Assembly (NCBI GenBank): GCA_018817515.1
Contig: JAHIUD010000053.1
Coordinates: 1 to 32,175, forward strand
Reading direction: 5' to 3'
DNA length: 32,175 nt
Origin: Pseudomonadota bacterium
Lineage (GTDB): Bacteria > Desulfobacterota > Desulfovibrionia > Desulfovibrionales > Desulfovibrionaceae
Under the pieces are notes generated by a model that was given only the letters and a program-made list of their open reading frames with translations, was not told the origin of the DNA and did not search any database. Both the position numbers and the translations under genes were made by a program. Position 1 is the first letter of the stretch. Every line of letters starts with the position of its first letter. This document shows positions 9,534-30,259 of the stretch, piece by piece.

Positions 9534-9547
9534 GCTTTCGGGGCAAA

Positions 9548-9781: not shown

Positions 9782-9783
9782 GC

Positions 9784-10918: not shown

Positions 10919-10937
10919 GCGTGCTCCGTGTGTTGTG

Positions 10938-10987: not shown

Positions 10988-11010
10988 GTCGGGGGGCGGT
11001 TTCGCTTGGA

Positions 11011-11610: not shown

Positions 11611-11621
11611 GGTGCGTCCTC

Positions 11622-11819: not shown

Positions 11820-12136
11820 GATGCGTTCTCCTTGGTTTCGGGGTTGTGGGGGCAGACACGGCAGGCGCGCCACTGCCGCAGGGCAACGGGGCTTGAGCTG
11901 GGCACCTGGCCGGTGAACTTGCGGCAATGGGTAGGCGTCACGGTTTGGCCCGTGTGCGGGCAGTCCAGCCGTGCGTAGCGTTCGATGATGCGCGCGGCCA
12001 TGAGGTCCGTTTCGGCGGGGTACTTGTCGACCAGCAGCAGGCTCACGGACGTGCGCGAAATGCCCAGCTCACGCCCCACAGCGGCGCGGGAGCTAGCGTC
12101 CACGGCCTGGCGCAGCAGGGCCTGCCAATCAGACAT
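11816..12136 (-). CDS. Small HTH protein with C-terminal Cys/His cluster
   Basis: A 106-residue protein. Residues about 1-50 form an XRE/Cro-like helix-turn-helix (V-G-R-E-L-G-I-S-R-T-S-V-S-L-L-L near 20-35). The second half has C-P-H-T-G, then C near 71 and C-R-V-C-P-H near 92-97, a pattern that could bind zinc. Similar HTH-plus-Cys proteins occur in the early region of Mu-like phages. Its first 8 bases overlap the upstream gene. Probably a DNA-binding early regulator. Confidence 0.7.
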   Translation of the reverse strand: MSDWQALLRQAVDASSRAAVGRELGISRTSVSLLLVDKYPAETDLMAARIIERYARLDCPHTGQTVTPTHCRKFTGQVPSSSPVALRQWRACRVCPHNPETKENAS

Positions 12137-13435: not shown

Positions 13436-13458
13436 GTCATGCCTCCCGTTAGTTCAGG

Positions 13459-15630
13459 TCAGATGCCAGGTGTTTCTAACGCCGGGAAAAGTTGGGCCGG
13501 GGCCAGGGCCAGGCCCTCGTAGTCGAAGCGTTCGCGCAGCAGGGCGTACTCGCGGCCCTGGGAGTATTCGGCCAGCCAGGCGCGGTCGGCGTCTGTCCAC
13601 TGGTCCTGGTGGCGCATGAGCCAGCGGTACTTCTCGGTGGAGAGGTGGAACATCGGACGCTTTTCGGCGGCGGGCCTGGGGGCCAGGGTCTGCGCTTGCT
13701 CGGCCTCGGCCTCGGCCATGACGGTGCGGATGCGCTCCAAATCTGCGGCGGTGGTGGCGGGCGCTGGCGCGGGCTCCGCCTGAATGGTGATGAACTGGCG
13801 GGCGGAGAGGCTGTCGGCCATAAGGGCCGGGGCGTCTTCCGCGACCTGGAGGGATGCACCGGGGGCGATGGCCTGGGCCTTCTTCTCCAGGCGCTGCAAC
13901 TGCGCGCGCTCGCGCTTGGCCCGCGCCTCTTCGATGCGGCTGACCGGGAAGTAGTTCATGGCGTTGGCGTCCAGGTGCGCGGTGCAGAGCTTTTCGCCCG
14001 CTTCCGTCCAGACGGTGACGTAGGTGGAATCCCAAATGTCGTAGCGCACCTGCACAATGTCGTCGTGGTGGGCGGCCAGCTCGGGCGCGAAGTAGTCGCG
14101 GTTCCACAGGCGCACCATGCCGTTTTTCACCTTGCGGAAGGTGCCGGGCATGAACAGGTCGTCGCGCAGGTCCTCGGGCACGCGGTACGGTTCAAACCTG
14201 CCCTCGAAGCTCTGCCAATGCTCGTTGGGGCTCATGTGGCGGCGCTTTCCGGCAGCAACGTCCTCGATAATGGGCAGGCCCCGGTGCGGGCTGGCGTTGT
14301 ATTCTTCCACACGGGCCAGCAGCACGCTTTTGAAGGCCTCGAAAGTTGGCAAAAGCGCCGAGCGTCCGTGCTTTTTGAGCTGGGCGCGGGTGATCTTGTA
14401 CACGCGCTTGGCCGCGTCATCGTCCATGTCCGCGTGGGTGCAGGTGGCCAGTTGCTTGGAGGCGGGCACGCAGATGGTTTTGACCGCGCGCTCCATGAGG
14501 CCCTTGCCCTGTGGGCGTCCGGGGATGGACTTGCAAATTTCGATGCCCAGGCGCTCCAGCATGCCCACGCCGGGCTTTGTGAGCAGGTCCGCCGTGTAGC
14601 CCGGCCCGTTGTCGGTGTAGAGCATGGCCGGGATGCCGCCGAACAGGCAGGCCATGCGCAGGGCGTCCAGGGTGGCGGCGGCGCTCTCGGCCAGGGCCAC
14701 GGAAAGCCCCACGCAACGGCGCGTGGCCACGTCCAGGAAGAGCACCACCTCCGGCTTGAAGGGCCGCCCGCTGTCCGGGTGGGCTATCTCGGCGTCAAAG
14801 GTGGTGCCATCCGCCGTGTACACGTCGCAGGGCAGCAGGGTGTCCGTCTTGCGCTTCATGTGGGGCTTAAGGTGCAGGAGCGCGTTGCCCGTCTTGCGCC
14901 CGGCCTCCAGGTCCGGCTTGGCGATCTTGGCCAGGAAGCGGCGCACGGTGTCGATGGTCGGAGCGGGTGTGGGCTGCTCGGCCTCCCAGGCGCGGGCAAA
15001 GTCGCGGTGCGCCTCGGCCAGGCTGGGGTTTTGCGGCCGCTGGAAAAACGAGAGGAAAAGCGGGGCCCAGGCGGGCACGCCCATGTCCTTGTGCGGGTGG
15101 CGAGGCGCAAGCGCCAGCTCCCCGCCCTCGGCATAGAGCGCGCACCATTCGTACAGGCGGCGGCGCGAGAGCCCGCGCGCATCACCCGCGCCAAACTTGG
15201 CGTTGGCCACGGGGATGAGACGGGCCAGGCGCTCGCCCAAGGTTCCGGCCTTGGAGGCCTGCACCAGGTGGCGGATGGCCGCCTCCTTGCCGGTGAGGGT
15301 GGCCAGGCGCTCAATCTCGCGGATGAAGGCCAGCCGGGCCAGGGCTGTGGCGCGCCGGTCCTCGGTCAGGTGGGCCAGGGAGGTTGCGCCAGCCACTGGT
15401 GAAGCCTTGGCCGGGGCCGTGGGCACGGGCAGCACGCCCTGTTCGGCCAGCTGGGCGGACACAATGGCGTCGCGGGTGGCCTTGGGCATGGACGCCACAA
15501 TCCAATCACTGCCGCCGCCGCGCGCTTGGCGCTTGCGGCCTTGCCAGGATTCGCGCTTGGCGCGGCGAATGACCGTGCTCACGTTCGCGCCCAGCAGCCG
15601 GGCCAGGTCAAGAGAGGTGAAGGCGTCCAT
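13459..15630 (-). CDS. MuA-like DDE transposase
   Basis: This 723-residue transposase has an N-terminal winged-helix DNA-binding part (residues 1-60, F-T-S-L-D-L-A-R-L-L-G). The retroviral-integrase-type core follows at about 260-410, with D274 (Y-T-A-D-G-T-T-F), D340 (L-Y-T-D-N-G-P-G) and E380 (G-R-P-Q-G-K-G-L-M-E-R) as the catalytic triad. A C-terminal Mu-type beta-barrel and tail region completes it. The spacing between the first two acids (66 residues) is like MuA; its length is within the MuA range. It cuts the phage ends and transfers them to new targets with the MuB-like ATPase. The ATG lies one base after the upstream stop. Confidence 0.95.
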   Translation of the reverse strand: MDAFTSLDLARLLGANVSTVIRRAKRESWQGRKRQARGGGSDWIVASMPKATRDAIVSAQLAEQGVLPVPTAPAKASPVAGATSLAHLTEDRRATALARLAFIREIERLATLTGKEAAIRHLVQASKAGTLGERLARLIPVANAKFGAGDARGLSRRRLYEWCALYAEGGELALAPRHPHKDMGVPAWAPLFLSFFQRPQNPSLAEAHRDFARAWEAEQPTPAPTIDTVRRFLAKIAKPDLEAGRKTGNALLHLKPHMKRKTDTLLPCDVYTADGTTFDAEIAHPDSGRPFKPEVVLFLDVATRRCVGLSVALAESAAATLDALRMACLFGGIPAMLYTDNGPGYTADLLTKPGVGMLERLGIEICKSIPGRPQGKGLMERAVKTICVPASKQLATCTHADMDDDAAKRVYKITRAQLKKHGRSALLPTFEAFKSVLLARVEEYNASPHRGLPIIEDVAAGKRRHMSPNEHWQSFEGRFEPYRVPEDLRDDLFMPGTFRKVKNGMVRLWNRDYFAPELAAHHDDIVQVRYDIWDSTYVTVWTEAGEKLCTAHLDANAMNYFPVSRIEEARAKRERAQLQRLEKKAQAIAPGASLQVAEDAPALMADSLSARQFITIQAEPAPAPATTAADLERIRTVMAEAEAEQAQTLAPRPAAEKRPMFHLSTEKYRWLMRHQDQWTDADRAWLAEYSQGREYALLRERFDYEGLALAPAQLFPALETPGI

Positions 15631-15631
15631 G

Positions 15632-15871
15632 CTAGGCGGCCTTGCTTTTCAGCGGAATGAACAGCAGGTCTTCCGGCACGCCGAACTGGTCGCGCAGGCT
15701 CTCCAGCACGCGCACGTTGTTTCTTTGTCCGGCGATGGTATCCGCCACGAGGTTCTTGTTCACGCCAAGCCGCCGGGCGACCTCCAGCATGGTCAGCCCC
15801 TGGCGGTCCAGGTGTTCGCGGATGCGAAAGCGCATCTTTTGGCGTTGGGCCCGGCATTCGAGGGGCTTCAT
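15632..15871 (-). CDS. Small HTH regulator (Ner/Cro-like position)
   Basis: 79 residues. A central helix-turn-helix (T-M-L-E-V-A-R-R-L-G-V-N-K-N-L-V-A-D-T-I, about 27-46) is preceded by an arginine-rich stretch. Its position just before the transposase gene is where Mu carries ner, a negative regulator of early transcription; the fold is also compatible. The start overlaps the upstream stop as ATGA. An orthologous role to Ner is inferred from position and fold only. Confidence 0.75.
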   Translation of the reverse strand: MKPLECRAQRQKMRFRIREHLDRQGLTMLEVARRLGVNKNLVADTIAGQRNNVRVLESLRDQFGVPEDLLFIPLKSKAA

Positions 15872-16293
15872 ATGGTGTCCTCCAGCATCTTCTTGCGCTT
15901 GCGGGCCTCGCGTTCCGTCACGCAGGCCTTGCCGTAGTCCCGCAGCTTGCGGTCCTCATCTGTCATCACGTCGAGCCCCAGGGAACGCAGCAGCACCCGC
16001 AGGGGGGCGGCGTCCTTGGTGGCCCGGCAGAAAGCAGCCACGGCCAAAAGGCCCGGCGTGTGGTCGCGGTCATTGGGGTTCAACCATTTGTCCAGGGTGT
16101 CTTTTGAGATGACCTTGGCGTTCCCGGCAGTGAGCCGAATGCCTGCATCTCTGGCCACCGCGTTGATGCGGTCCACCAGCAGCTTGCGGCCATCCTCGTC
16201 CTCGCCAGCAGCGCGGTTCATGGCCGCGCGCATGGCTGGGACCAGGCCGGAAAGCCTGCCGTGGTCGTCGTCGAAGAGGGAAACCTGCCGCAT
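15868..16293 (-). CDS. First early-operon phage protein, unknown function
   Basis: About 141 residues from the ATG at 16293, which has AAGGCGG about 9 bases upstream; a TTG twelve codons earlier lacks such a site. The N-terminus M-R-Q-V-S-L-F-D-D-D is followed by a helical body with S-K-D-T-L-D-K-W-L-N-P-N-D-R near residues 60-73, which looks like a DNA-binding or toxin-type helix pair. The C-terminus is strongly basic (R-E-A-R-K-R-K-K). Such proteins open the early operon in Mu-like phages of this group; I do not know the function. Confidence 0.7.
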   Translation of the reverse strand: MRQVSLFDDDHGRLSGLVPAMRAAMNRAAGEDEDGRKLLVDRINAVARDAGIRLTAGNAKVISKDTLDKWLNPNDRDHTPGLLAVAAFCRATKDAAPLRVLLRSLGLDVMTDEDRKLRDYGKACVTEREARKRKKMLEDTI

Positions 16294-16414
16294 AGTCGCA
16301 ATCCGCCTTGTGGTGGAGGGCACGTCCAAACGTTCTTTGTGTGTGGACGTTGACCCTGTTGCGCGGGGCTGGTAGGGTTTTTCTTGAAGGGTTTTCCACC
16401 GCCCGCACCGTCTT

Positions 16415-16441
16415 TTTGTACCATTTGGATAACTTTGTCAA
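16415..16441 (-). promoter_or_regulatory. Candidate leftward early promoter
   Basis: On the minus strand a consensus TTGACA (16441-16436) is followed after a 15-base spacer by TACAAA (16420-16415), with an upstream TG giving an extended -10 (TGGTACAAA). It points at the early operon, whose first ATG is 122 bases downstream. The short spacer is offset by the extended -10. Prediction from sequence only. Confidence 0.5.
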
Positions 16442-16443
16442 CG

Positions 16444-16540
16444 CCGAACGGCGCAAAAGTTAGTGAAACGGTATTAAAAACGGTTCGGCAAGAATACCGA
16501 ACGGTTATGTTTTGTTTTGCGCGCCCCCCGGCGCAAAACT
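16444..16540. promoter_or_regulatory. Operator region between repressor and early operon
   Basis: The 240-base gap between divergent genes is AT-richer than its surroundings and repeat-rich. It holds GCGCAAAA at 16451-16458 and 16531-16538; a 9-bp inverted repeat GTTTTGCGC/GCGCAAAAC (16514-16522, 16531-16539); AACGG at 16447, 16467, 16479 and 16500; and TTCGG/CCGAA flanking 8 bases near 16484-16501. Such sites are likely bound by the LexA-like repressor and the Ner-like protein. Which repeat belongs to which protein cannot be told here. Confidence 0.6.
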
Positions 16541-16573
16541 TCTCGCGCATGTTCGGGCTGGGAAGTTTGGCGT

Positions 16574-17263
16574 ATGATCGGTGACCGTATCGTGCTGATT
16601 CGCGGTAAGCAGGCTAGGGATTCCTTTGCTTCAGAGCTGGGCGTGCATCCGCAAACCCTGGCTCGGTATGAAAAGGGTGAACGGCTCCCGGATAGCGCTT
16701 TCCTTGAGATGTTATCCAAACGGCACAACGTCGATCCGGCATGGCTACTCACGGGTGAAGGCCAGCCCTATTCCAAGCAGGCCGCTGCCCAGCCAGTGGT
16801 GCCCGCGCCCAACACGTCACCGGAGTTCATCGAATGCATGGACTGCCATCTGACCATGGTGCCCATGGTCGAGGCTAGGCTGTCGGCAGGGACGGGGAGC
16901 TTTGAGGCAGATGCTGGCATCGAGCGCCGTTACGCATTCCGAAGCGACTGGATCAATACAAAGGGCCAAGCTGCGAGCATGGTGCTTATGCGCGTGGCTG
17001 GCGACAGCATGGAACCGCAGATTTTCAACGATGATGTGGTGCTGATTGACCAGAGCCAGACGACGCCCCGAGCTGGTGGACTGTTCGCCATTGCGGTCGA
17101 AGATGTGGTGTACATCAAGATGGTGGACACCCTGCCGGGCAAGATCGTCCTGAAGAGCTACAACAGCAGCTATGCGCCGCTTGAAATTGATGCGCGTGGC
17201 GACCTAGCAGACGGGATTCGGATCATCGGTCGGGCGGTGTGGGTCGGTCGGGAACTCTACTAA
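16574..17263 (+). CDS. LexA/CI-type phage repressor (HTH plus S24 peptidase)
   Basis: 229 residues from ATG 16574 (GGAAG about 9 bases upstream). The N-terminal HTH lies at residues about 12-35 (F-A-S-E-L-G-V-H-P-Q-T-L-A-R-Y-E), then a linker, then an S24/LexA-like autoprotease domain with catalytic S145 (G-D-S-M-E-P) and K182 (V-V-Y-I-K-M-V). A105-G106 is a plausible self-cleavage site. The fold predicts RecA-triggered self-cleavage and prophage induction by DNA damage, unlike the Mu c repressor, which lacks this domain. It is transcribed away from the early operon and is the only gene of the prophage on the plus strand. Confidence 0.92.
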   Translation: MIGDRIVLIRGKQARDSFASELGVHPQTLARYEKGERLPDSAFLEMLSKRHNVDPAWLLTGEGQPYSKQAAAQPVVPAPNTSPEFIECMDCHLTMVPMVEARLSAGTGSFEADAGIERRYAFRSDWINTKGQAASMVLMRVAGDSMEPQIFNDDVVLIDQSQTTPRAGGLFAIAVEDVVYIKMVDTLPGKIVLKSYNSSYAPLEIDARGDLADGIRIIGRAVWVGRELY

Positions 17264-17430: not shown

Positions 17431-17493
17431 GAATGCCTCCCCAGTTCCGCAGATTCATGTAGGCGGAGCTGGACATATGCTGCCGCAAAGATA

Positions 17494-17523
17494 AAGGGCT
17501 TGCGACGCAAATCGCAAGCCCTT
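17494..17523 (-). terminator. tRNA-type terminator hairpin in att-like copy A
   Basis: Twelve-base arms AAGGGCTTGCGA and TCGCAAGCCCTT pair perfectly around a 6-base loop. On the minus strand they follow the tRNA remnant and lead into a T-rich stretch, as expected for a tRNA terminator. Confidence 0.75.
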
Positions 17524-17531
17524 GATCTTTC

Positions 17532-17580
17532 TGGGGGAGGCTTGCGGGAATTGAACCCCGGCCTCTTGATGGCGCTCAAG
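17532..17580 (-). pseudogene. tRNA 3' remnant (copy A)
   Basis: Minus-strand sequence runs from an anticodon-arm remnant (CTTGA/TCAAG stem with a 6-base loop) through a T-arm with the loop TTCAATT to a CCA-like end. The T-stem has mismatches and the anticodon loop is one base short, so it is not functional. The 5' half (acceptor strand and D-arm) is absent; the tRNA-like sequence stops at the anticodon stem, a common crossover point for tRNA integrases. Confidence 0.65.
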
Positions 17581-17915
17581 GGCGACACAGGTCGCGTCGC
17601 GTAATTATTCGATCTTATTGCGCATGCGCTGCAAGCGAATGATCATTTGGGGACATCTGTAGTGCCTGTCTGTAGTGCAAAGCTTTCTTGCGGCAAGAGA
17701 ATCTCCGGGCCTGGGATCATAATATCTGTTTGTAGGCCGCATGCAGAAATCGTTGCTGTATGAATTGGAATGCACATTTTTTCGCAGGGTCAAAGCAGGG
17801 GGTTTGGTCTGCACCCCATGAACGTCTCGCTGAATACTATTGAGCCGCTTGACACCACACTATCTTTCAGGCTTTGGTCATACGTAATGTCACAAGAAAT
17901 GGGACGATACCGCAA
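17581..17915. other. Noncoding stretch before the exopolysaccharide operon
   Basis: About 335 bases, less GC-rich than its surroundings. It holds the right part of att-like copy A, two GTAGTGC boxes, and a TTGACA at 17849-17854 that could be the -35 of the operon's promoter. No convincing -10 lies at the normal distance. A short minus-strand open frame (17605-17814) covers the repeats and shows no protein-like features. Confidence 0.5.
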
Positions 17916-18644
17916 ATGATGCGCTGCGCTGTGCGAACGCAGGCTGGCAAGCTGCGCCAGTATCTGACCTTCGCCACCCTGGCGGTGGTCACTGTTGCGG
18001 CCTGCGTTCTGGCCTATCCACACGCGCGGCGGGGGCAGCAGCTTGTGGCCGCATCCGAGCGTCTGCTGACGCAAGGCAAGGTGGAGCAGGCCCTGCTGGC
18101 CTTGCGCGAGGCTGCGAGCCTCGGCAGCATCCCCACTGGCAGCGCCGGGACCATGCTCGACGCCGCGCTCAAGGCAGGCGATGCAGACATCTCCCGCGAT
18201 CTGGCCATGCTGCTCATGAACAAGGGCAGGCCCCTGGCCTCTGGCCTTGTGGGCAAGGCCGCCGGGCTGCTCGACGCCTCCGGTGATCCCACAGGGGCGT
18301 TGGCCTTGCTTGAGAAGCGCCGCGCCATGGGCGCGCTGGAAAACCCCGAGACCCTGCACCTGGCCGACCTGTTGCGCCGCGACAGACGTTTCGATGAGGC
18401 GCTGGAGCTCTACGCGGGCATGCTGGCCAAGAATCCCGACGACACCGGCGCTGGCGCGGACCGCGCCGAGACGCTGCTCTGGATGGGCAAGCCCGCCGAG
18501 GCCGAAAAGGCCGCGCGGGACATGCTGGCCCGCAAGCCCGGCTCACGCGCCGCCCGGTTGGTCCTGGCTCGGACCCTGGCCGCTGGCGGCAATACCGAGG
18601 GCGCCATCGCCGAGTACCAGAAACTGCTGGGAGAAAAGCCGTGA
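17916..18644 (+). CDS. TPR protein with N-terminal membrane anchor, exopolysaccharide operon gene 1
   Basis: About 242 residues. A transmembrane helix (T-F-A-T-L-A-V-V-T-V-A-A-C-V-L-A, about residues 18-34) is followed by about four tetratricopeptide-like helix pairs with repeated A-L-L-A-L-R-E-A, A-L-E-L-Y-A-G-M-L-A-K-N-P and A-I-A-E-Y-Q-K-L-L. It is probably anchored in the inner membrane with TPRs in the periplasm, as a scaffold between synthase and outer-membrane exporter. The first ATG of an ATG-ATG pair was chosen; upstream starts lack a good ribosome site. It overlaps the next gene by 4 bases. Ala/Leu-rich, typical of TPR solenoids. Confidence 0.78.
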   Translation: MMRCAVRTQAGKLRQYLTFATLAVVTVAACVLAYPHARRGQQLVAASERLLTQGKVEQALLALREAASLGSIPTGSAGTMLDAALKAGDADISRDLAMLLMNKGRPLASGLVGKAAGLLDASGDPTGALALLEKRRAMGALENPETLHLADLLRRDRRFDEALELYAGMLAKNPDDTGAGADRAETLLWMGKPAEAEKAARDMLARKPGSRAARLVLARTLAAGGNTEGAIAEYQKLLGEKP

Positions 18645-19273
18645 GCATCGCCCGCCGACCTGTCATTGCCGTTCTTCTGCTTGCGTTGCTGGCCCTGCCC
18701 GCGCCCCTTGCCGCCCAGCCGCAGCAAGCGCCGACGGACAATCCCATGCCGCCCGCCCGCGACGACATGGCCGATTGGCAGGCCCGGCTGGAGCTGGCCC
18801 GGCTGCTCACCGAGTCCGGTCGCCACGCCGAGGCCGCCGAGCAGTATCGCAAGGTCCTGCGCGACAAGCCCGACCAGGCCCAGGCCCGCGCCGGGCTGGC
18901 CCGCGCCCTGTTCTGGAGCGGCAAGCGCGAGGAGGCCGCAGCGGAGCTGGCCAAGACCCCGGCTTCTGCGCTCACCGCCGAGGACCGGCTGCTCCAGGCC
19001 GAACTGTATCTTTCCGCCAACCGCCATGACGAGGCCATTGAAGCCCTGCGGGGCTACCTGGCCCTCAAGCCTGCCGATGTGAAGGCCCGGCTCAAGCTGG
19101 CCGATGTGTTGTCCTGGCGCAAGCGCCTGGACGAGTCCCTGGCCGAATACGAGAAGGTGCTTGCCAGCACTCCGAACGACCAGCAGGTGCGCCGCCGCTA
19201 CGCCCGCGTGCTCACCTGGGCCGGCCGCAACGACGACGCCATCCGGGAGCTGAGAAAGAGCCTTGGGAATTAG
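18641..19273 (+). CDS. Periplasmic TPR protein, exopolysaccharide operon gene 2
   Basis: 210 residues starting (GTG) with a clean signal peptide (V-I-A-V-L-L-L-A-L-L-A-L-P-A-P-L-A-A, cut after about residue 25). TPR units follow: W-Q-A-R-L-E-L-A-R-L-L-T-E-S-G-R-H-A-E-A-A-E-Q-Y-R-K-V-L, then R-H-D-E-A-I-E-A-L-R-G-Y, then R-L-D-E-S-L-A-E-Y-E-K-V-L. Expected in the periplasm, where it could bind the outer-membrane exporter or the polymer. Start and end overlap both neighbours, so translation is probably coupled. Confidence 0.8.
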   Translation: MSIARRPVIAVLLLALLALPAPLAAQPQQAPTDNPMPPARDDMADWQARLELARLLTESGRHAEAAEQYRKVLRDKPDQAQARAGLARALFWSGKREEAAAELAKTPASALTAEDRLLQAELYLSANRHDEAIEALRGYLALKPADVKARLKLADVLSWRKRLDESLAEYEKVLASTPNDQQVRRRYARVLTWAGRNDDAIRELRKSLGN

Positions 19274-22200
19274 GCGCGCCATAATTCGTCTGGCCGGGGC
19301 CGCGCTCTGCGTCCTGGCCTTGCTCCCGTTGGCGGCGTTCGCCGCTTCGGGCAGCCTTGTGCCGCCGGCCGAGCGCATCTCCGACGCCGAGGCCCGGCGC
19401 GAGCTGGCCCGGCTGCTCTCCTATTCCGACTCTGGCCGCGCCGAGGCCATGGACATTCTGCAGGCGCAACTGAAGCTCGCCCCGCAGGACGCCGAAGCGC
19501 GCCTGGCCCTGGCGGAGCTGCTCGCCCGCGCGGGCCGGCTGCCCGAGGCCGAGACCGCCCTGGCCGCGCTGCCAGCCAAGACCCTGGCCCTGCCGGAAAC
19601 CCAGGAACGCATCGGCGATGCCTATTTTGCCGCAGGGCGCATGAACGAAGCCTCCCGGCACTTTCAAAAGGCGCAGGCAGGGGGTCGGCCGGTGCTGCGC
19701 AAACTGGCGCAGTCCCTGGCCTGGGGAGGCGATGCGAAGGCCGCCCGGCCCATGCTCGAGAAACTCCTGGCGGAGAATCCTGCGGACCGCGAAGTCGCGC
19801 TGCTGCTGGTGCGCCTGCGCCTGGCCGATGGCGATGCCAGCGGGGCCGCCGCCTTGGCGCGGCAACTGGCCCAGTCCGCGCCGGATGATCCGCAGGGTCT
19901 AGCCGAATTGGCGGATGTGGAGACCGCCCTGGGCCACGCCGCCAGCGCCCGGTCGCTGTACGAGAAGGCGCTTGCCCTGCCTGGCGGGGCAGAACTCTTG
20001 CCGCGCTATGCCCAGGCCATGAGCCTCTGGGGCGCCTTTGGCCGGGCCATCGGCATCCAGCGCGGGCAGGTGGCCGCAGGCCATGCCGAGGCCCGCCTGG
20101 CCCTGGCCGAGGCGCTCCTCGCCGCCCAGCGCGCCGACGAGGCGGAGGGCGTGCTGCGCTCCCTCATGCTGGAAGGGCTTGCCTCGCAAGCGCGGCTGCT
20201 ACTGGCGCGGCTCAAGCTTGGCCAGGAAGACCCTGGGGCGGCCCTGGAGTCCCTCGCGCCACTTCTCGACGCCACGCCGACCCTGCCGGAAACTCCCGCT
20301 GCCCTGGCTTTGGCGGCGCAGGCGCAAATGAAGCTGGGCAATCCGGCCGAGGGGTTGCGCCTGCTCTCCACGTTGCCTGCGGACCGGGATCCCGTCCTGC
20401 GCGCCCGGCTGATGCTTGCTGCCGGACAAAAGGACCAGGCCGCCGCGCTGCTGGCCAAGGCCCACGCAGCCGCTCCCCGCGATGCCGAAATCGCCTTCCT
20501 GGCCCTTGGGGCGCAGGCCTCGGCCCCGGCCACCCTTGATATACTGACCGCGCCCGGCGCGCGCACCCCGGCGGAGCTTACCGCCTGGGCCGGGCTTTTC
20601 GCCCAGGCTGGCCAGCGGGCCGCCGCCCTCCGTTGCCTGCGCACCGCCCTCGTGGCCGACGCCCAGTATTATCCGGCGCGCATGGCCCTGGCCGAAACCC
20701 TGGCCGCCGACCGCCAGTACGATCAGGCCCTGGCCGAGCTGAACGCCCAGGCCGCCGAATTCCCCGACTCCTCCAAGGTGCTCTTGACCCGCGCCCGGGT
20801 GCTCTCCTGGGCCAAGCGCTATGACGAGGCCCAGGCCGCCTATGCCGCTCTCGCGAAGGCCGATCCCGGCGACCCCGTGCCGGTGCGCGAGGCCGCCCGC
20901 GTGCATTTCTGGGCCAAGGAGCGCGACCAGGCCCTGGCCTCCTATTCCAGCCTGCTGGCCCCGCCTGTGGACGCCAGCCTGGCCGGGGAGCTTGGCAAAG
21001 TGGCGGGGGTGACCAAGGACGCCCAGTTGGGCGACATCGCCGCCAACATGGCCAAGAGCGCGGCCGAGGGTTCGCAGTATCGCCGCTACGAACGCCTGAA
21101 CCTGGGGCGCGACGCAGAATTTTCATCCGAGTCCGCGCCTGGGGTCAACCGCGCCCTGGTTGACCAGTTGCCCGCCTACCGCATCCAGAAGGGCGCCAGC
21201 CTGGAGGCCCAGGCCAAGAACCTGTCCTTTGACCGCCGCTTCAGCCGGTCCTTGCCGGCATACGGCGAGCTGCTCGCCTTCGAGCCCGGCAACCAGGAGG
21301 CCCGCTTCGACCAGGCCCAGAGCGCCTGCGCCCTGGGCCTTTGCAGCGCCGAGCGCGCGGCCTACACGCGCCTGCTTCAGATCGACCCGCTGCACACCCT
21401 GGCTGGCACGGCCCTGGAGCGCCTGGAGCATCGCACCAGCCCGGTTGTTTCTCTGCGCCAGAACATCTGGCACGAGGCGGGCCGGGGCGAGCTTGCGCGC
21501 ATATTGCGCCTGCGCACGGACCTGGGGCTCACCGTGCCCGTGGCCGACGACTACCGCCTGGGCCTGACCCAGCACCGCTGGCAGGAGAGCCCGCGCGGTG
21601 GGCCGACCTACGAGGCCCTGGGCCAGACCCTGTCCCTCGACGGCGTTTTCAGTCCGCTGCTGCGCGGCGCGGCCTCGTGGACCAACAAGCGCTACACCAC
21701 AGGCAAGGTCGGCAATGTCGATACGGGCCGGGCGCGGCTGGAATTCAACCTGGACGACGTGGCTCGGCTGGGGCTGGGCTATGAACGCATGGAGGAGCTG
21801 GCCAACGAATACGCCCTGCGGCAGCGCGCGCTGTCCGACAACCTGTTCGCCGACCTGACCCTGACCCCGTCGCGGGATTGGGAGATCACCGCCGAGGTGC
21901 GCGCCAAGAACTACAGCGACGGCAATGTGGGCGACATGCAGAAGCTGGCCGTGAGCTACGCCCTTACCGACCACCCGCGGCAGCTCAAGGCCATCCTCTC
22001 CGGCGAGCGCCGCAACACCCAGAAGAAGAGCGAGGAGGTCTACACCGGGGCCGCGCTCACGGACATCCGCCGCCCGTACTGGACGCCCCAGGACTACACG
22101 GCCACGGCGTTCACGCTGGACTGGCGGCATGACCTGGCCAGGCTGTTCTTCTGCGGCGCGCCGGAGCACTGGTACGACCTGCGCGCCACCGTGGGCACGG

Positions 22201-22349
22201 ATTCGGAAAACAACCCGTCCGTGCGCTTCGAGGCCGAGTGGAAGTATGAGTTCGCCGAGCGCTGGGCGCTGGAGGCCAAGGGGCTTGTGCACCGCTCGCC
22301 GCAGTGGGATGCCGAGGGCCTGTGGCTGGGCCTCGGGTTCGGGTTCTAG
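19263..22349 (+). CDS. Large TPR protein with C-terminal outer-membrane beta-barrel, exopolysaccharide exporter
   Basis: 1028 residues. Signal peptide (about 1-28), then about 650 residues of TPR-like helical repeats, then a C-terminal beta-rich region (about 730-1028). Alternating strands such as R-A-R-L-E-F-N-L-D and F-A-D-L-T-L-T run to the end, and the last residue is Phe (G-L-G-F-G-F), as in outer-membrane barrels. This periplasmic-TPR plus barrel layout is that of BcsC, PelB and PgaA, which export polymer through the outer membrane. The TTG start at 19263 is forced: an in-frame TGA lies four codons upstream and the signal peptide begins at once. It overlaps gene 2 by 11 bases. Confidence 0.85.
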   Translation: MGIRRAIIRLAGAALCVLALLPLAAFAASGSLVPPAERISDAEARRELARLLSYSDSGRAEAMDILQAQLKLAPQDAEARLALAELLARAGRLPEAETALAALPAKTLALPETQERIGDAYFAAGRMNEASRHFQKAQAGGRPVLRKLAQSLAWGGDAKAARPMLEKLLAENPADREVALLLVRLRLADGDASGAAALARQLAQSAPDDPQGLAELADVETALGHAASARSLYEKALALPGGAELLPRYAQAMSLWGAFGRAIGIQRGQVAAGHAEARLALAEALLAAQRADEAEGVLRSLMLEGLASQARLLLARLKLGQEDPGAALESLAPLLDATPTLPETPAALALAAQAQMKLGNPAEGLRLLSTLPADRDPVLRARLMLAAGQKDQAAALLAKAHAAAPRDAEIAFLALGAQASAPATLDILTAPGARTPAELTAWAGLFAQAGQRAAALRCLRTALVADAQYYPARMALAETLAADRQYDQALAELNAQAAEFPDSSKVLLTRARVLSWAKRYDEAQAAYAALAKADPGDPVPVREAARVHFWAKERDQALASYSSLLAPPVDASLAGELGKVAGVTKDAQLGDIAANMAKSAAEGSQYRRYERLNLGRDAEFSSESAPGVNRALVDQLPAYRIQKGASLEAQAKNLSFDRRFSRSLPAYGELLAFEPGNQEARFDQAQSACALGLCSAERAAYTRLLQIDPLHTLAGTALERLEHRTSPVVSLRQNIWHEAGRGELARILRLRTDLGLTVPVADDYRLGLTQHRWQESPRGGPTYEALGQTLSLDGVFSPLLRGAASWTNKRYTTGKVGNVDTGRARLEFNLDDVARLGLGYERMEELANEYALRQRALSDNLFADLTLTPSRDWEITAEVRAKNYSDGNVGDMQKLAVSYALTDHPRQLKAILSGERRNTQKKSEEVYTGAALTDIRRPYWTPQDYTATAFTLDWRHDLARLFFCGAPEHWYDLRATVGTDSENNPSVRFEAEWKYEFAERWALEAKGLVHRSPQWDAEGLWLGLGFGF

Positions 22350-22358
22350 GGGGCGGCC

Positions 22359-23996
22359 ATGCACCAGAAGACGCGCGCCAAGCTCTACGCCCTGACCCTG
22401 ACAGCGGCCATGTTGTCGATTTTTCTGTATCTCATGGCGCGCACGGTGCTGTTTGTCGCCTCCGCACGGCTCTGGCAGGAGATCGCCGTGGGGGCCATGC
22501 TGCTCTTGGCCGAGGGTTTCACCATGCTGCACGCCTTCGGCTACTTTCTCAACGTGTACCACGGCCTTGCCGCCGCAGACCAGCCGCGCATCACGCGGGA
22601 CACCGTGCCGCAGCTCACGGATTATCCGCCCGTGGCCATCGTGGTGGCCTCGTACAAGGAGCCGCTGGACGTCCTAGAGGACACGCTGACCTGCTTCTAC
22701 AACCTGACCTACCCGAACAAACGCATCTATTTTCTGGACGACACGCGCTACGATCTGCCCAAGGACGACCCGCAGAAGATGGCCGAGTACCGGGGCAAGA
22801 TCGACGAGCTGTGCCAGCGCATCGGTGTGAATCTGTTCCGTCGCCCCTGGCGCGGGGCCAAGGCCGGCATGATCAACGACTTCCTGGACTACCTGGCCGA
22901 AAAGCCCGTGGCCCAGGCCAGCCTGACCTCCTTTGAGGACCGGCCTCGCAGCGGGACCGGCGGTACGGAGAAATACATCATCGTCTTCGACGCGGACATG
23001 AACCCGCTGCCGGACTTCGTGGAGCCGCTGGTGGCCTTCATGGAGCAGCACCACAAGCTGGCCTTCATCCAGACCCCGCAGTACTACTCGAATTTTGAGG
23101 CCAACCGCGTGGCCAAGGCCGCCGGGCTGCAACAGGCCGTGTTCTATGAGTATATCTGCGAGGGCAAAAGCGCCCAGGACGCCATGTTCTGCTGCGGCAC
23201 CAACGTCATCCTGCGGCGCGAGGCCCTGCTCGACGTGGGCGGCTTCGACGAGACCTCGGTCACCGAGGACTTCGCCACCAGCCTGCGCTTCCACATGAAC
23301 GGCTGGAGCAGCGCCTACCTGAACAAGATCTGCGCCTTCGGCATGGGGCCGGAGGACCTGGGCGGATATTTCAAGCAGCAGTTCCGCTGGGCGCTCGGCA
23401 CCGTGGGCCTGCTGCGCTCCATCGGCCGGGAATTTCTGCGCGGGCCCTCGCGCCTGCCCGCAGCCAAGTGGTGGGAGTATTTTCTTTCCGGCACGCACTA
23501 TTTCGTGGGCTGGGTGTTCATCGTCATGGCCGTGTGCCCGCTTCTGTACCTGTTCAGCGACACGCCCAGCTACTTCGCCCGGCCCGAGCTGTATTTCCTG
23601 TTCTTCCTGCCTTACATCATCCTCACCGTGACCATCTTTTTGTACTCCATGAGCCAGCGCAAGTACCGCTTCCGCGAACTGGCCCAGGGCATTCTGCTTC
23701 AGGCCATCACCTTCCCGGTGTACATGCAGGCCTCGCTCCAGGGCCTTGTGGGCGTGCGCGGCAGCTTCGGCATCACGCCCAAGGGCGGCAGCACCTCGCT
23801 TGCCATGTACAAGCTCTGGCCGCAGCTTGGGCTGGCCCTGGCCTGCCTGGGCGGGTTCACCTGGGGCATGCTGCGCCTCTACCATGGCGATGGCCCGCCC
23901 CTGGCCCTGCTGACAAACGCGGGCTGGTGCCTGTACCACTTCTGCATCCTCTCCACCACGCTGTTTTTCAACTTCCCCGAGGAGGACACGCTGTGA
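22359..23996 (+). CDS. Membrane glycosyltransferase GT2, cellulose-synthase-like polymer synthase
   Basis: 545 residues. Two N-terminal membrane helices (about 12-34, 41-63); a cytosolic GT-A domain with L-D-D at 126-128, D-A-D at 211-213, T-E-D at 302-304 (catalytic base) and Q-Q-F-R-W at 340-344; then further membrane helices at about 380-520. These are the D, D, D, QxxRW motifs of processive synthases such as BcsA and PgaC, which join sugars and push the chain across the inner membrane. Unlike BcsA it has no C-terminal PilZ domain; a PilZ protein is encoded two genes downstream. The sugar cannot be told from sequence. Ribosome site GGGGGCGG precedes the ATG. Confidence 0.9.
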   Translation: MHQKTRAKLYALTLTAAMLSIFLYLMARTVLFVASARLWQEIAVGAMLLLAEGFTMLHAFGYFLNVYHGLAAADQPRITRDTVPQLTDYPPVAIVVASYKEPLDVLEDTLTCFYNLTYPNKRIYFLDDTRYDLPKDDPQKMAEYRGKIDELCQRIGVNLFRRPWRGAKAGMINDFLDYLAEKPVAQASLTSFEDRPRSGTGGTEKYIIVFDADMNPLPDFVEPLVAFMEQHHKLAFIQTPQYYSNFEANRVAKAAGLQQAVFYEYICEGKSAQDAMFCCGTNVILRREALLDVGGFDETSVTEDFATSLRFHMNGWSSAYLNKICAFGMGPEDLGGYFKQQFRWALGTVGLLRSIGREFLRGPSRLPAAKWWEYFLSGTHYFVGWVFIVMAVCPLLYLFSDTPSYFARPELYFLFFLPYIILTVTIFLYSMSQRKYRFRELAQGILLQAITFPVYMQASLQGLVGVRGSFGITPKGGSTSLAMYKLWPQLGLALACLGGFTWGMLRLYHGDGPPLALLTNAGWCLYHFCILSTTLFFNFPEEDTL

Positions 23997-25066
23997 GCGC
24001 CCCACGCCGGTATCTCTGGTCGGTCATGCTGCTCGCACTTTGCCTTGGCGCTTGCGTACCAGATGGCGGCAGCGCAAAGCGCAGCACCCCGGCCTTTGGC
24101 GTGGCCCTGGACGGCCTGCCCGTGACGCCAGGGATGATCGACGCGGCCAAGGCCTCCACGGGCCTGCCCGTGCGGCTGGTGCAGTTCTATGCGCAGTGGC
24201 CGGCAAATCCAGCCGAACCGCATGGCGAACATCTCGCCAGTCTGACTGCCAGTCTGGCCGCCAGCCAGACCGCCGGAGCCGTGCCCTGCGTCACCTGGGA
24301 ACCCATGGGCATCGGCGCGGGCGGGCGCGAGACCGTCATCCCGGCAGAGCGCATCCTGGCCGGGGAGTACGACGCCTACATTGCGGCATTCGCGCGCGCG
24401 GTGCGGGATTTCGGTGCGCCGGTGCTGGTGCGGCTGGCGCACGAGATGAACCTGGCGCGCTACCATTGGGGCTCGGACGCCGCAGGCTACGGCCCGCAGA
24501 GCCCGGAACGCTACAAGGCCCTGTTCCGCCGCGTGGTGGAGATCTTCCGCGCCCAGAGTGCTGGCAACGCGCTCTTCGTGTTCTGTCCCAACGTGGACTC
24601 GCTGCCGGTGGAGCCGTGGAACCGCGCCAGCGCCTACTACCCGGGCGATGGCTACGTCGACGTGCTGGGCATGGACGGCTACAACTGGGGCACCACCCAC
24701 ACCAAGGGCGCCCACGGCTATGACAGCTCCTTCCGGCCTTTCAAGGAGATCTTCCGGCCGCTGTATGATGAACTGAAGACCCTGGCCCCGGCCAAGCCGG
24801 TCATGGTCTTTGAGACGGCCTCCGCCTCCAAGGGCGGCGACAAGGCCCGCTGGGCCGCCGAAGCCCTGGACACGGCCTCGGCCTGGGGCCTTGCCGCCGT
24901 GGTCTGGTTCGAGGTGGACAAGGAGCAGGACTGGCCCCTGCGCAAGGGCGCGGCCGTCGATCCGGCACCAGTCGCCCGGCCCTACCTCACCGACGACCCG
25001 GCTTGGCTTGAGAAGGTGCTGCCCCAGCGTCCACATGGGCAGTCGCAGCGGGAGAAGCGGCCATGA
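23993..25066 (+). CDS. GH26-family lipoprotein, probable beta-mannanase-type hydrolase
   Basis: 357 residues starting with GTG in a 4-base overlap with the synthase stop. A lipoprotein signal ends L-G-A-C (Cys21). The TIM-barrel domain follows, with R-L-A-H-E-M-N (acid/base E151) and V-M-V-F-E-T-A-S (nucleophile E274), the GH26 pattern, and G-M-D-G-Y-N-W-G between. GH26 enzymes act on beta-mannan and related beta-glycans. Synthase operons often carry one hydrolase that trims or releases polymer (BcsZ, PelA, AlgL), so a mannose-containing product is possible but only inferred. D-at-+2 retention signals are absent (residue 22 is Val), suggesting outer-membrane sorting. Confidence 0.82.
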   Translation: MSAPRRYLWSVMLLALCLGACVPDGGSAKRSTPAFGVALDGLPVTPGMIDAAKASTGLPVRLVQFYAQWPANPAEPHGEHLASLTASLAASQTAGAVPCVTWEPMGIGAGGRETVIPAERILAGEYDAYIAAFARAVRDFGAPVLVRLAHEMNLARYHWGSDAAGYGPQSPERYKALFRRVVEIFRAQSAGNALFVFCPNVDSLPVEPWNRASAYYPGDGYVDVLGMDGYNWGTTHTKGAHGYDSSFRPFKEIFRPLYDELKTLAPAKPVMVFETASASKGGDKARWAAEALDTASAWGLAAVVWFEVDKEQDWPLRKGAAVDPAPVARPYLTDDPAWLEKVLPQRPHGQSQREKRP

Positions 25067-25857
25067 GCAAGGCTGACCGCCACGCCAAACGTCTGGCTGT
25101 CGAGTCTGTGGTGCTGCCGTTTCTGGGCTCCCGGGCCGAGGACTATCAGAGCTTCGAGTACCTGCTGCAGGACGTGAGTGTGGGCGGCGTGGGCATAGCG
25201 ATCCCGCGCTGGGTGGTGGCGCGGGAGACTCTGCGCCAGGGCGAGCGCCTGCACCTGCATCTGCCTTTTGAGCTGGGCGGGCGCATGCTGCACAGCGGCG
25301 TCGTCACCTGGGTGCGCTGGGACGAGGAGCAGGAGAGCCAGTTGGCGGGCGTGCTGCTGGACACCCACACCCCGGCGCTTTATCCGGTCTACGTCTCCGT
25401 GGGCACCAGGGAAGTGGCCATCGACCTGGAGGACTTTCCGGGGCTCGAGCACATCCTGTCGCAGGTGCTCAAGGACTCGCTGCTGCTCAAGCGCGGCATC
25501 CTGGTCTACCTGAAGCATCTGACGGCGTTTTTTTCGCGGGTCTGCGACCTGAACCGGGAGGAGTACGCCTTGTTTCGGGAGGTCGTCATCGAGGACGTGC
25601 GGGCCAAGGTCTTGGCCAACGCTGAGCGCCTTGAGATCATGCAGCCGCGCTCTGGCGAGGAGATGGAGGGAACTCTGGCCCGGCTGGATTTGTCCGAGCT
25701 GCGCCAGGCCATGGAGCCGGAGCTCTATGTGGACATGTTCCGCGCCGCCCTGGGCGACGAGACCGTGATCCTGTTCCTCAAGGCCGTGAAGGAACTGGAG
25801 CGCAAGCTCTTGTCCAACTACAACACCTGCGTGTTGCTCTACATCAACTCACTGTGA
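25063..25857 (+). CDS. PilZ domain protein, probable c-di-GMP receptor for the synthase
   Basis: 264 residues. The N-terminal PilZ domain has R-H-A-K-R at residues 6-10 (RxxxR) and D-V-S-V-G-G-V-G at about 37-44 (DxSxxG), the two c-di-GMP-binding motifs. The C-terminal half (about 120-264) is helical, charged and unfamiliar; it may contact the synthase. It overlaps the GH26 gene (ATGA) and is last in the operon. In BcsA and Alg44 a PilZ domain turns the synthase on when c-di-GMP is bound; the same control in trans is the natural reading. Its stop overlaps the end of the RsbW-type gene on the other strand by 9 bases. Confidence 0.85.
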   Translation: MSKADRHAKRLAVESVVLPFLGSRAEDYQSFEYLLQDVSVGGVGIAIPRWVVARETLRQGERLHLHLPFELGGRMLHSGVVTWVRWDEEQESQLAGVLLDTHTPALYPVYVSVGTREVAIDLEDFPGLEHILSQVLKDSLLLKRGILVYLKHLTAFFSRVCDLNREEYALFREVVIEDVRAKVLANAERLEIMQPRSGEEMEGTLARLDLSELRQAMEPELYVDMFRAALGDETVILFLKAVKELERKLLSNYNTCVLLYINSL

Positions 25858-26280
25858 CTGCTTCTTGAAGCCCTTGCGCATGATCAGCACGTTGCCCTGC
25901 TCCCCGGCCTTGTAGCCCACGCTGTCGGCCGCGCTGCGGATGAGAAAGAGCCCCATGCCGCCCTCTGGCAGTTCCTCCAGGCTCCGGGCAATAATCATGT
26001 CGTTGTTCAGCTTCTGTCTGTCCTCAAGCGGCGCGCCCTTATCGTACACGCCAATGACCATGCCTGTGCCGTCCACGGCCAGGGTCACGCGCACCAGGCC
26101 GTCGGTCTTGCCCTTGTAGGCATGCTTGATGGCGTTGTTAACCGCCTCGCACACGGCCAGCTCCAGCGCGTCGGACTCATCCGGAGTCAGGGGCAATCCC
26201 CCGCAGATGCCGCGCACGGCCAACCCCACCAGGTGCACCAGTTCCAGGCGGCTGGCGATGGAGAGCTCGATCGTCTCCAT
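25849..26280 (-). CDS. RsbW/SpoIIAB-type anti-sigma or switch kinase (HATPase_c)
   Basis: 143 residues forming a GHKL ATPase: N-box E-L-A-V-C-E-A-V-N-N-A-I-K-H-A (E45, N49), G1 box V-Y-D-K-G-A-P (D80, G82) and G2 box G-G-M-G-L-F-L-I (107-114). The family phosphorylates a STAS partner on Ser and may hold a sigma factor or another target. The STAS partner is encoded four bases upstream. No sigma factor gene is nearby, so the target is either distant or not a sigma factor. Third gene of the minus-strand operon. Confidence 0.88.
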   Translation of the reverse strand: METIELSIASRLELVHLVGLAVRGICGGLPLTPDESDALELAVCEAVNNAIKHAYKGKTDGLVRVTLAVDGTGMVIGVYDKGAPLEDRQKLNNDMIIARSLEELPEGGMGLFLIRSAADSVGYKAGEQGNVLIMRKGFKKQSQ

Positions 26281-26284
26281 ATGC

Positions 26285-26641
26285 TTAGTCCGGTGTCGGT
26301 GCGGCTGAAAGCGCGGCCACGGCCTCGGCGGTTGTGCCGAAGATGCGGAACACGCCCCGGTCCAGTCGGGTGATGGCGAAGAGCTTGCGGACCTTTTCGC
26401 TCAGGCAGCACACGGCGATCTCGCCTGCTCCGCCCAGGGTCTTCATGCTCGACATGAGCGAGGCCAGGCCGCTGGAGTCCATGAAGTCCACCGCCGCGAG
26501 ATCGAGCACGAAGCGCTTGGCCCCCTGATGGATCAGGTCCACCATATTGCTTTTGAAGAGCGGCGCCGCGGCTGCGTCCATGCGCAGGCCCTTGAAGAGC
26601 ACCACCGTGACCCCGCCCTCAAGCCTGTTCTCAAATTCCAT
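26285..26641 (-). CDS. STAS-domain anti-anti-sigma factor (RsbV/SpoIIAA type)
   Basis: 118 residues from the ATG at 26641, with AGGAGG 5 bases before it. The STAS fold includes V-L-D-L-A-A-V-D-F-M-D-S-S-G-L-A-S-L, where S56 (in D-S-S-G) is the expected phosphorylation site. When unphosphorylated it should bind the RsbW-type kinase and free its target; the SpoIIE-type phosphatase encoded upstream would reset it. A TTG six codons upstream would overlap the phosphatase stop but has no better ribosome site. Confidence 0.9.
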   Translation of the reverse strand: MEFENRLEGGVTVVLFKGLRMDAAAAPLFKSNMVDLIHQGAKRFVLDLAAVDFMDSSGLASLMSSMKTLGGAGEIAVCCLSEKVRKLFAITRLDRGVFRIFGTTAEAVAALSAAPTPD

Positions 26642-26655
26642 GTGTTCCTCCTGGT

Positions 26656-29600
26656 TCAAACCCTGCTGAAGCGTGCACAGACAAGGGAAATATCGTCATC
26701 TGGCGGACGGCCGTCCGCGTGGGCCTGCAGCTTGCCGGTAAGCATCATGAGCATCTGTTCCGGCGTTTGGCCACGCGCAGAGCGGAACAGTTCCTCCAGG
26801 CGTTCCGTGCCGAACTGCTCGCCGTCGGGGCTCTCCAATTCGCTCACGCCGTCCGTGTAGACCAGCAGCATGTCGCCCTCCTGTACGTCAACCTTGCCCT
26901 GGGCGTAAGTGTCGCCAAACCCCATGCCCACCAGGGTGCCGCCTTCCTCCAGGAACTCGAGCCCACCCCCGGCGCGCAGAAGCATGGGCGGAGGGTGCCC
27001 GGCATTGCAGTAGGACAAGGTGCCCTTTTCTGTGTCGTAGAGCAGGTAGAACATGCTGAAGAACTTGTCGAACCGCTCCAGGGGGAAGGCGGAATCGAGC
27101 AGGCGCAGCACCCCCTCCGGCGCCCTGGGCTGGTCAAGGAACTTGTCCATGAGCAGGTCGCCGGAGGGCGAAAGTTCTTGGGCAAGGGTCACGGAAACCA
27201 GGGCCGCAGGGATGCCGTGGCCGCTGACGTCGACCATGTACAGGCAGGTGTGCTGCGCGCTCAGGCAGACCACGTTGAAGATATCGCCGCCGATGGTGGC
27301 GCTCGGCATGAAGCGGTAGTCCGTCTCAATACCAAGGGCGCATGTGCCTTCCTTGGGAAGCAGGCTGCGCTGGATCTCCGCTGCGGCCTCCATGTCGGCG
27401 TCGATGAGCCTTTGGCGCTCCTCAAGCTGAAGCTGTGTGGCCTTCAGTTCGGTCACATCGTTCACCAGAACGAAGAATCCCAGAACGCGGTCGCCGTCAT
27501 AGTCAGGGATGTAATGGGCCAGGGTGTAGCGCGTGCTTCCGTCTGTCTTGGTCAGCACCCGCTCGAAGTGTTGCGGCTCGCCGCGCAGTGCGCGCAGGAC
27601 GAACTGTTCGTTCTTGGCGAAGATCTCCGGCCCCAGCAGATCCTGCATGCGCATGCCAAGAATTTCCTGCGAGGGCCGCCCGAACCAGTCCAGGTAGGCG
27701 CTGTTGGCGAACTCGCAACGCAGCTCCGCGTTCCAGTAGCCCACAAGGCCTGGAATGTTGTTCGTGATCGACTTCAGGAAATTCTCGCCCTTGGCCAGCG
27801 CGGCGTTGGCGGCCTCCATCTCCTCGCGCGCGCGCGCGCGCTCGGAGATGTCGCGCAGGATGCCAGTGTAGAGCCGCTCGCCGCTGGTCACGATTTCGCT
27901 GACGGCCAGCTCCAGCGGAATGATGACGCCATCCTTGCGCTTGCCGGGCACCTCGCGCTGCCCCTTGCCTATGACGTGTGGCACGCCGGTGCGGGCGTAG
28001 CGCTCCAGGTAGCCGTCATGCTGGCTGTGGTAGGGCTCGGGCTGGAGCATGTTGACGTTGTGCCCCACCAGCTCCTCAAGACTGTAGCCGAAGGTCCGGC
28101 AGGCAGCCTGATTGGCCGTGAGGATGCGCCCGAACTGGCTGACCGTGAAAATGGGGTCCACGGCGTTGTCCAGCACGGCGGCAAGGCGGGCCTGGCTCTC
28201 TCGCAGGGCGTTCTCCGCGGCGAGACGAGCCGAGATGTCCACGCCGATGCCGAGGAACCCGATGATGCTGTCGTGACGGTCGCAGATGGCCGTGACGACG
28301 AGCTCGATCGGCACATGGCTGCCGTCCTTTCGCACGTAGGTCCACTGGCGCACGTCGTAGCCGCCCTCACGCGCCAGGGCCACGAAAATGTCAAAGCCCT
28401 CCAGGGAACGGCCAAGCCGCTGGGAGAGTTCCTCGCCGTAGGCCATGACCTCCGGGCCAAGGTGGATGATCTCCGGCGTGTGCAGGCCCACCATCTCGTC
28501 GGCGCTGTAACCGAGCATGTTCTCCGCGCCGTGGTTGAACACGGTGATGAGGCCCTCGTTGTCCGTGGCGATGATGGACACCTGGCTGGCTGCGTTGACC
28601 AGCCCGGCCAGCTTGGCGGAGTCGGCCTCGGCGCGGCGGCTCTCGGTTATGTCCCGGAAGGTGACCACCGCTCCGACGACCTCGCCGGCGCGGCGCTGGG
28701 GATACGACCAGTACTCGGCCGGAAAGCTGGAGCCGTCGGCGCGCCAGAGCACTTCATCGTCCACGTGGGAGCCCTGGCCCAGTCGGAAGGCCTGGAAGAT
28801 GCGGCAGTCGTGTACGTCGAAGGCCGAACCGTCCTTGTGCGTATGGTGGATGAGCGTGTGCATGTTCTTGCCGAGCAGCTCGTCCACGCTCTTGAAACCG
28901 AGCACGCGCACGCAGGCCGGGTTGCAGAATGTGCACAGGCCGCTGGTGTTGATGCCGTAGATGGGCTCGCCGGTGGACTCCAGCAGCAGGCGGATCTTCT
29001 CCTCGCTCTCGCGCAGTTCGATGGTCATGCGGTCGGCCAGCGCCAGCGCCCGCTGCCGGGTGCTCAGAAGCGACAGCGCGATGAAAAACAGCAGCAGGCT
29101 GATGCAGATGCCGCCCATGAGCACCAGCAAGGGCATGGCGCGGTCCAGGCTGGCCTCGAAGCCCGGCAAGGAGCGGAAGCCCAGGGTCCAGTTACGGCCA
29201 AAGACAGCCAGGGTACGGGCCGATGCGAACATTGGCTTGCGTCCGGAGGCGGAATCTTCGGCAAAGGCCTGGCTACGATACATGAGGTTGTGCTCAATCC
29301 GGTCCGGCCCGTCGTACACCTCAAGTCCGAGTTCGGAGATGGTCTTGCCGACGATGCCCTGCATGAAGTTGTTCATGCGGAAGGGGCTGTAGACATAGCC
29401 GAGCAGGGCCGCGCGGCGGTCGCTGCCGGTGTAGACGGGTGCGCCGGGCTTGTAGAAGGGCAGATACATGAGAAAGCCGGCCTGGACTTCCTCGTTTGTC
29501 TCCTGCACCAGGGTCACGCGACCGCTGATGGTGGTCTGGCCTGTGTCGCGGGTGCGCTCCATGGCCGCGCGGCGGGTTGGCTCGCTGAACATGTCGAAGC

Positions 29601-30108: not shown

Positions 30109-30259
30109 GGGGTGCTCAATGCATGCAATATGTTGGGTGGACTCTATGATACTCTTACGCAAAATCCAGCAGGTGGCAACAGGAATGACAACGCGGCTGG
30201 TTGAGGAGGCCCTCGCCACGAGTGCCAGGCACTCCAGAGGTGCCCATCAACACCCGCGA

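Follow-up and report, generated by a model that had tools for sequence, protein, structure and literature searches.

The window, a 32,175-nucleotide stretch of contig JAHIUD010000053.1 from a member of the Desulfovibrionaceae, contains at 17916-30219 a locus that probably serves to make and export a polysaccharide. Six of its genes lie on the plus strand, each overlapping the next or separated from it by at most 10 base pairs (bp) in open reading frame (ORF) coordinates, and Pfam places their products in TPR families (the first three) and then in GT2, GH26 and PilZ. All six were listed in an original prediction for this DNA, and their positions, strand and families are borne out. Three further genes, of HATPase, STAS and SpoIIE type, run convergently to this operon, the HATPase gene overlapping the PilZ gene by nine bases (Table 1). 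Gene content, conservation, folds and motif states, as computed here, together make it probable that the locus encodes a split-BcsA machine for synthase-dependent exopolysaccharide production, with a beta-glucan product and with control by cyclic di-GMP (c-di-GMP) and a partner switch.

The GT2 protein aligns with residues 231-686 of Escherichia coli BcsA (hhalign E 1.7e-29) and ends just before the BcsA PilZ domain. Compared with solved structures, its family profile finds cellulose synthases and their plant relatives only, with BcsA first at 165 bits. The best NCBIfam model is CelA, at 221 bits against a cut-off of 699, and the PgaC model scores 72 bits against 422. The catalytic motifs pointed out in the original prediction are conserved across the family, TED and QQxRW in 92/92 rows and DAD in 90/92, as is the gating-loop motif F-x-x-T-x-K (91/92, the remaining row being gapped there). 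A segment that reads FFCG in two BcsA sequences is FCCG in 88/92 family rows, and the four BgsA-like rows compared have FCCG in three cases and ICCG in one. In each of two trees (SH-aLRT 99 and 100) the family forms a single clade that excludes the BcsA and BgsA-like rows and, in one of the trees, the one PgaC row as well. The reference set was small (two BcsA rows, five BgsA-like ones and, in the first tree only, one PgaC), and an unannotated Sinorhizobium meliloti row was taken as BgsA because an HlyD-type gene precedes it; with these references, the firm clustering inside a Bcs or Pga clade that would have spoken against the prediction was not seen. Judged from its sequence, the GT2 protein appears to be a BcsA-like enzyme from which the PilZ domain has been detached.

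Table 1. Genes of the locus, with predicted products and the basis of each assignment
Feature	Position	Strand	Basis
TPR1: periplasmic TPR protein, N-terminal membrane anchor (ATG start at 17916; alternative TTG at 17874)	17916-18644	+	Pfam TPR_19 4e-14 (run from TTG); hydrophobic N-terminal segment in sequence
TPR2: exported periplasmic TPR protein	18641-19273	+	Pfam TPR_19 6e-24; own hidden Markov model (HMM)
TPR3: TPR superhelix and C-terminal outer-membrane barrel, putative exporter	19263-22349	+	Structure model
BcsA-like GT2 polymerase lacking a C-terminal PilZ tail	22359-23996	+	Pfam; hhalign to BcsA
GH26 lipoprotein, lichenase-like	23993-25066	+	Pfam GH26; lipobox LGAC read from sequence
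Stand-alone PilZ domain and C-terminal helical bundle	25063-25857	+	Pfam PilZ; structure model
HATPase_c_2 (RsbW/SpoIIAB-like) kinase	25849-26280	-	PF13581 2e-26
STAS (SpoIIAA-like) protein, DSSGL phosphosite	26285-26659	-	PF01740 1e-15
CHASE-PAS-SpoIIE sensor phosphatase	26656-30219	-	Pfam CHASE, PAS and SpoIIE domains

The likely counterpart of the missing domain is encoded by the last gene of the operon. Its product is modelled as a beta-barrel (strands 20-121) followed by a helical half (128-263), in agreement with the separate PilZ protein carrying an extra helical half that had been predicted, and structural matches to the barrel include the PilZ domain of BcsA itself. The motifs RHAKR and DVSVGG lie on the barrel and fit the c-di-GMP receptor pattern RxxxR plus [DN]xSxxG, which is intact in 43/49 sequences. 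In all four genomes without GGDEF matches, which belong to Chlamydiae, the gene is kept and the motifs are lost. The genome of the window has 32 GGDEF matches, and c-di-GMP should therefore be available to the protein. Upstream of the GT2 gene, TPR3 is modelled as a TPR-barrel protein with PelB, BcsC and PgaA as its nearest folds, consistent with an exporter of the BcsC type.

The hydrolase offers a view of the polymer. The GH26 family profile matches the GH26 domain of Clostridium thermocellum Endoglucanase H (2bv9) over nearly its full length at 223 bits, as against 59 bits or less, over partial length, for mannanases; the window protein alone scores 117 bits with the lichenase and 45 with mannanases. 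Glu 151 and Glu 274, which we read from the alignment as the catalytic pair, are invariant in 31/31 aligned rows, and the protein may accordingly be classed as lichenase-like. The Endoglucanase H domain is the lichenase Lic26A, as named in an excerpt of PMC5849603. At two loci without an adjacent GH26 gene (L119 and L129), a GH8 gene overlaps the end of the GT2 gene, and its nearest match is an endo-1,4-beta-glucanase. The GT2 gene occurs in 24/384 genomes of the Omnitrophota group, where it is followed by GH26 in 17 (three of these scoring only partially, at 41 to 56 bits) and accompanied by GH8 in 4 (one being the L129 genome again); the other 3, of which one is at a contig end, have neither gene. 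Since lichenase-like GH26 and GH8 enzymes overlap on beta-1,4-containing glucans, a beta-glucan is the best guess for the polymer; it seems likelier than mannan, and a mixed-linkage glucan is a good candidate. Elsewhere in the genome of the window (G000), on contig C44, a 927-residue open frame (L039:1330-4110) joins a GH17 part to a GT2 part and is possibly another glucan synthase.

At E <= 1e-60, GT2 relatives are patchily distributed, being found in 19/199 genomes of the order and 12/395 of the phylum, own genome counted in each. A scan of species genomes gave 126 relatives, of which 80 were kept; 18 further stretches were added and seven repeats of the same contigs removed, leaving 91 distinct loci, window excluded, which were scored with HMMs built from close relatives. 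Long flanks are available for 46 of them. GH26 directly follows GT2 in 80/91 loci (44/46 with long flanks), TPR3 directly precedes it in 78/91 (42/46), and a TPR2-type protein, detected with its own HMM, is present in 71/91 (42/46). Near GT2 there are also PilZ (50/91; 37/46), STAS (48/91; 37/46), SpoIIE (40/91; 30/46) and HATPase (32/91; 25/46) genes. These counts define a TPR-TPR-barrel-GT2-hydrolase core to which PilZ and STAS are frequently added, the kinase and phosphatase less often. By the names of the sequence records, relatives come from Desulfobacterota, Thiocapsa imhoffii, Ectothiorhodospiraceae, Verrucomicrobiota, Chlamydiae, Omnitrophota, Riflebacteria, Kiritimatiellota, Lentisphaerae, Neomarinimicrobiota, Wallbacteria and Brocadiaceae. 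The arrangement recurs in many phyla far beyond chance, so the conserved gene order anticipated by the original prediction does exist. The extent proposed there was right in that all six genes are conserved, but it omitted the partner-switch genes at 25849-30219, which belong to the neighbourhood in many relatives, although not in all.

Those three genes supply all parts of a SpoIIAA/SpoIIAB/SpoIIE-type switch: a STAS protein with a phosphosite, a HATPase kinase and a PP2C phosphatase. The best PDB match of the STAS family profile is a SpoIIAA-type antagonist (87 bits), and the phosphosite reads DSSGL or DSTGL in 41/49 sequences. Of the 48 loci with a STAS gene, 37 have it on the GT2 strand (27 upstream, 10 downstream) and 11 on the opposite one. 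PilZ and STAS genes are no more than 300 bp apart in four loci, and in one locus a PAS-SpoIIE gene sits between GT2 and GH26. Three loci (L030, L055 and L056) have adjoining PilZ and STAS genes upstream of the TPR genes, an altered STAS phosphosite and no nearby kinase match. Environmental Chlamydiae assemblies (L084, L089, L101, L102, L104, L107 and L115) contain the exopolysaccharide synthase and hydrolase; in four of them (L084, L089, L101 and L102) STAS partner-switch genes are present as well and GGDEF matches are lacking. By the partner-switch genes of L078, L085, L088, L091 and L093 there is a gene of a UAP1-like UDP-sugar pyrophosphorylase family, and four of these loci, plus L090, have one of a GalT-like family; one member of each family was scanned.

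From these features we infer a polymer substrate, a gating mechanism in trans and a STAS target. The GT2 protein would polymerise a beta-glucan-type chain and translocate it through the inner membrane, the periplasm would be bridged by TPR1 and TPR2, and TPR3 would export the polymer through its outer-membrane barrel, with the GH26 lipoprotein trimming or clearing it. The stand-alone PilZ protein would replace the PilZ domain of BcsA, its c-di-GMP-bound form opening the GT2 gating loop in trans. The SpoIIE phosphatase, the HATPase kinase and the STAS protein would constitute a partner switch, and its STAS output would act on the polysaccharide machine, with the helical half of the PilZ protein as the probable route. 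Conceivably, the detached PilZ protein is an AND gate, its barrel reading c-di-GMP and its helical bundle reading the phosphorylation-controlled STAS protein, so that the switch directly controls the polymerase; we put this forward tentatively. If it is so, Chlamydiae without c-di-GMP synthesis would keep the STAS input only.

Several observations weigh against parts of this scheme. The hhalign probability for the pairing of the PilZ protein with BcsA is just 15%, and the c-di-GMP motifs are lost also in three genomes with 2, 2 and 8 GGDEF matches. BgsA-like proteins that lack PilZ also have both the gating-loop motif and a glutamate at the position of BcsA E371, the latter shared by PgaC too, so these features are no proof of PilZ control. 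With regard to the polymer, the five GH8 rows form one clade and represent a single swap on the tree; that clade also holds one row with neither GH8 nor GH26. The specificity of the GH26 lichenase branch is not narrow, because the second of the two such enzymes in print by 2020 also cuts xyloglucan, according to an excerpt of PMC7157769. HATPase is absent near 59/91 loci and STAS near 43/91, and although contig ends truncate some of these loci, 21 of the long-flank loci lack HATPase and 9 lack STAS; the partner switch is therefore not universal. The STAS phosphosite differs in 8/49 sequences, with a kinase-like gene retained in three of these cases (L060, L089 and L102), and an association between a changed site and a missing kinase (p 0.02 without phylogeny) has no support once phylogeny is taken into account.

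Alternative readings of the product and of the switch draw on some of the same evidence. Plain cellulose or another beta-1,4-glucan, made by a divergent Bcs operon in which GH26 has replaced BcsZ, would account for the BcsA and CelA matches of the GT2 protein and for the appearance in one clade of GH8, the family of BcsZ. However, the CelA score is far under the curated value, BcsB is without a match in the genome, and the GT2 protein lies outside the BcsA and BgsA-like rows; its FCCG in place of FFCG is a weak hint in the same direction, and overall this origin seems unlikely. Beta-mannan, the guess of the original prediction, would make GH26 a mannanase, as most GH26 enzymes are annotated or characterised in excerpts of PMC7157769 and PMC6556568. 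The wide preference of the GH26 profile for the lichenase and the nearness of the GT2 protein to UDP-glucose enzymes both tell against it. So does the GH8 swap, as we know of no mannanase in GH8, and mannan can now be regarded as very improbable.

For the switch, it is possible, if not our expectation, that the STAS, HATPase and SpoIIE proteins have a sigma factor or a diguanylate cyclase as their target and reach the exopolysaccharide genes only indirectly. Classical partner switches target sigma factors (an excerpt of PMC8256260), a Pseudomonas network of similar general kind targets a diguanylate cyclase (in an excerpt of PMC8457831), and the genes are convergent in the window. Against indirect control stand the STAS gene's position on the GT2 strand in 37/48 loci, its proximity to PilZ in four and, as a weak negative, the absence of a sigma-like ORF from the 91 loci, which alone were searched, with E. 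coli FliA, RpoS and RpoE as the only probes and no positive control.

The split-BcsA system can also be set against known machines. With Bcs (BcsA, BcsB, BcsC and BcsZ) it shares the catalytic and channel region of GT2, the gating-loop motif, the PilZ fold, a TPR-barrel exporter and an operon-borne hydrolase. Unlike Bcs, it has a separate PilZ protein with a helical bundle, a TPR scaffold split into three proteins, GH26 rather than GH8, and a STAS partner switch alongside. A BcsA with its own C-terminal PilZ domain, scoring above the CelA cut-off, is not what the locus encodes, and the 95%-complete assembly yields no BcsB (PF03170) match, in a search with a positive E. coli control. BgsBA, the mixed-linkage beta-glucan synthase of S. 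meliloti and plasmid-borne relatives, similarly combines a GT2 without fused PilZ, an FCCG-type motif and an FxVTxK gating loop, and BgsA is reported to be under c-di-GMP control (an excerpt of PMC5567048). In contrast to the present family, BgsA has a c-di-GMP-binding tail of its own, according to the same paper, and an HlyD-type gene precedes its GT2 gene; no HlyD match occurs among the nine neighbourhood genes here, and the SH-aLRT of 100 sets the two families apart. The BgsBA-type stretches have no TPR exporter or GH26 annotated, in gene tables that are incomplete.

Pel and Pga resemble the locus in the fold of the TPR-barrel exporter but have other synthases. The PgaC score is low, and in the same assembly PF14883, the hydrolase domain of PgaB and the one part of that protein searched for, is without a match. 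Of the parts described originally as missing, BcsB thus has no match in the genome, but PelG is present there: its sole match lies on another contig (G000:C69:33781-35130), so a separate Pel system is likely. Alg8, Alg44, AlgG and AlgX do not appear among the Pfam and NCBIfam matches of the locus genes, no search having been aimed at them. On the features tested, the claim holds that this synthase-dependent system corresponds to none of the Bcs, Pga and Pel operons. Lic26A, by a wide margin the nearest solved GH26 structure, is a cellulosomal enzyme, whereas the GH26 here is a lipoprotein in a biosynthesis operon. Syp of Vibrio fischeri likewise ties a STAS protein (SypA) and a kinase/phosphatase (SypE) to a polysaccharide locus, and the STAS target there is not known (PMC8256260, in excerpt); it differs as an 18-gene locus (excerpt of PMC4517449) from a synthase-dependent GT2 with a PilZ protein.

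Among the titles listed in searches of CC-licensed PMC papers none describes this gene set, and a survey (PMC7112194) contains no occurrence of Desulfovibrio, Deltaproteobacteria, GH26, STAS, Chlamydia or lichenase; as far as those searches go, the locus is apparently an undescribed but widespread variant of synthase-dependent exopolysaccharide systems. It would add an exopolysaccharide route in sulfate reducers and further lineages, including Chlamydiae. To our knowledge, no such machine is known in lineages of the latter kind. Because the regulator is a protein apart from the enzyme and the two can be combined at will, the detached PilZ would suit studies of c-di-GMP gating in a cellulose-synthase-like enzyme. 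A few proteins would also be enough for a direct test of what STAS proteins act on in polysaccharide loci such as syp.

Similarity to the relatives begins only at about 17846. To the left of the operon, Mu-like prophage genes occupy the minus strand within 1580-17263, among them a portal gene (1580-3187) and a transposase gene (13459-15630), and an S24/HTH repressor gene (16517-17263, plus strand) lies near the upstream region of the operon. The segment at 17481-17680 is 71% identical to L051:20399-20601 and has a strong hairpin at 17487-17530; it may be a terminator and attachment site, but ARAGORN reports no tRNA. On the right side of the window, an RHS/YD-repeat fragment lies at 30629-31300 on the minus strand.

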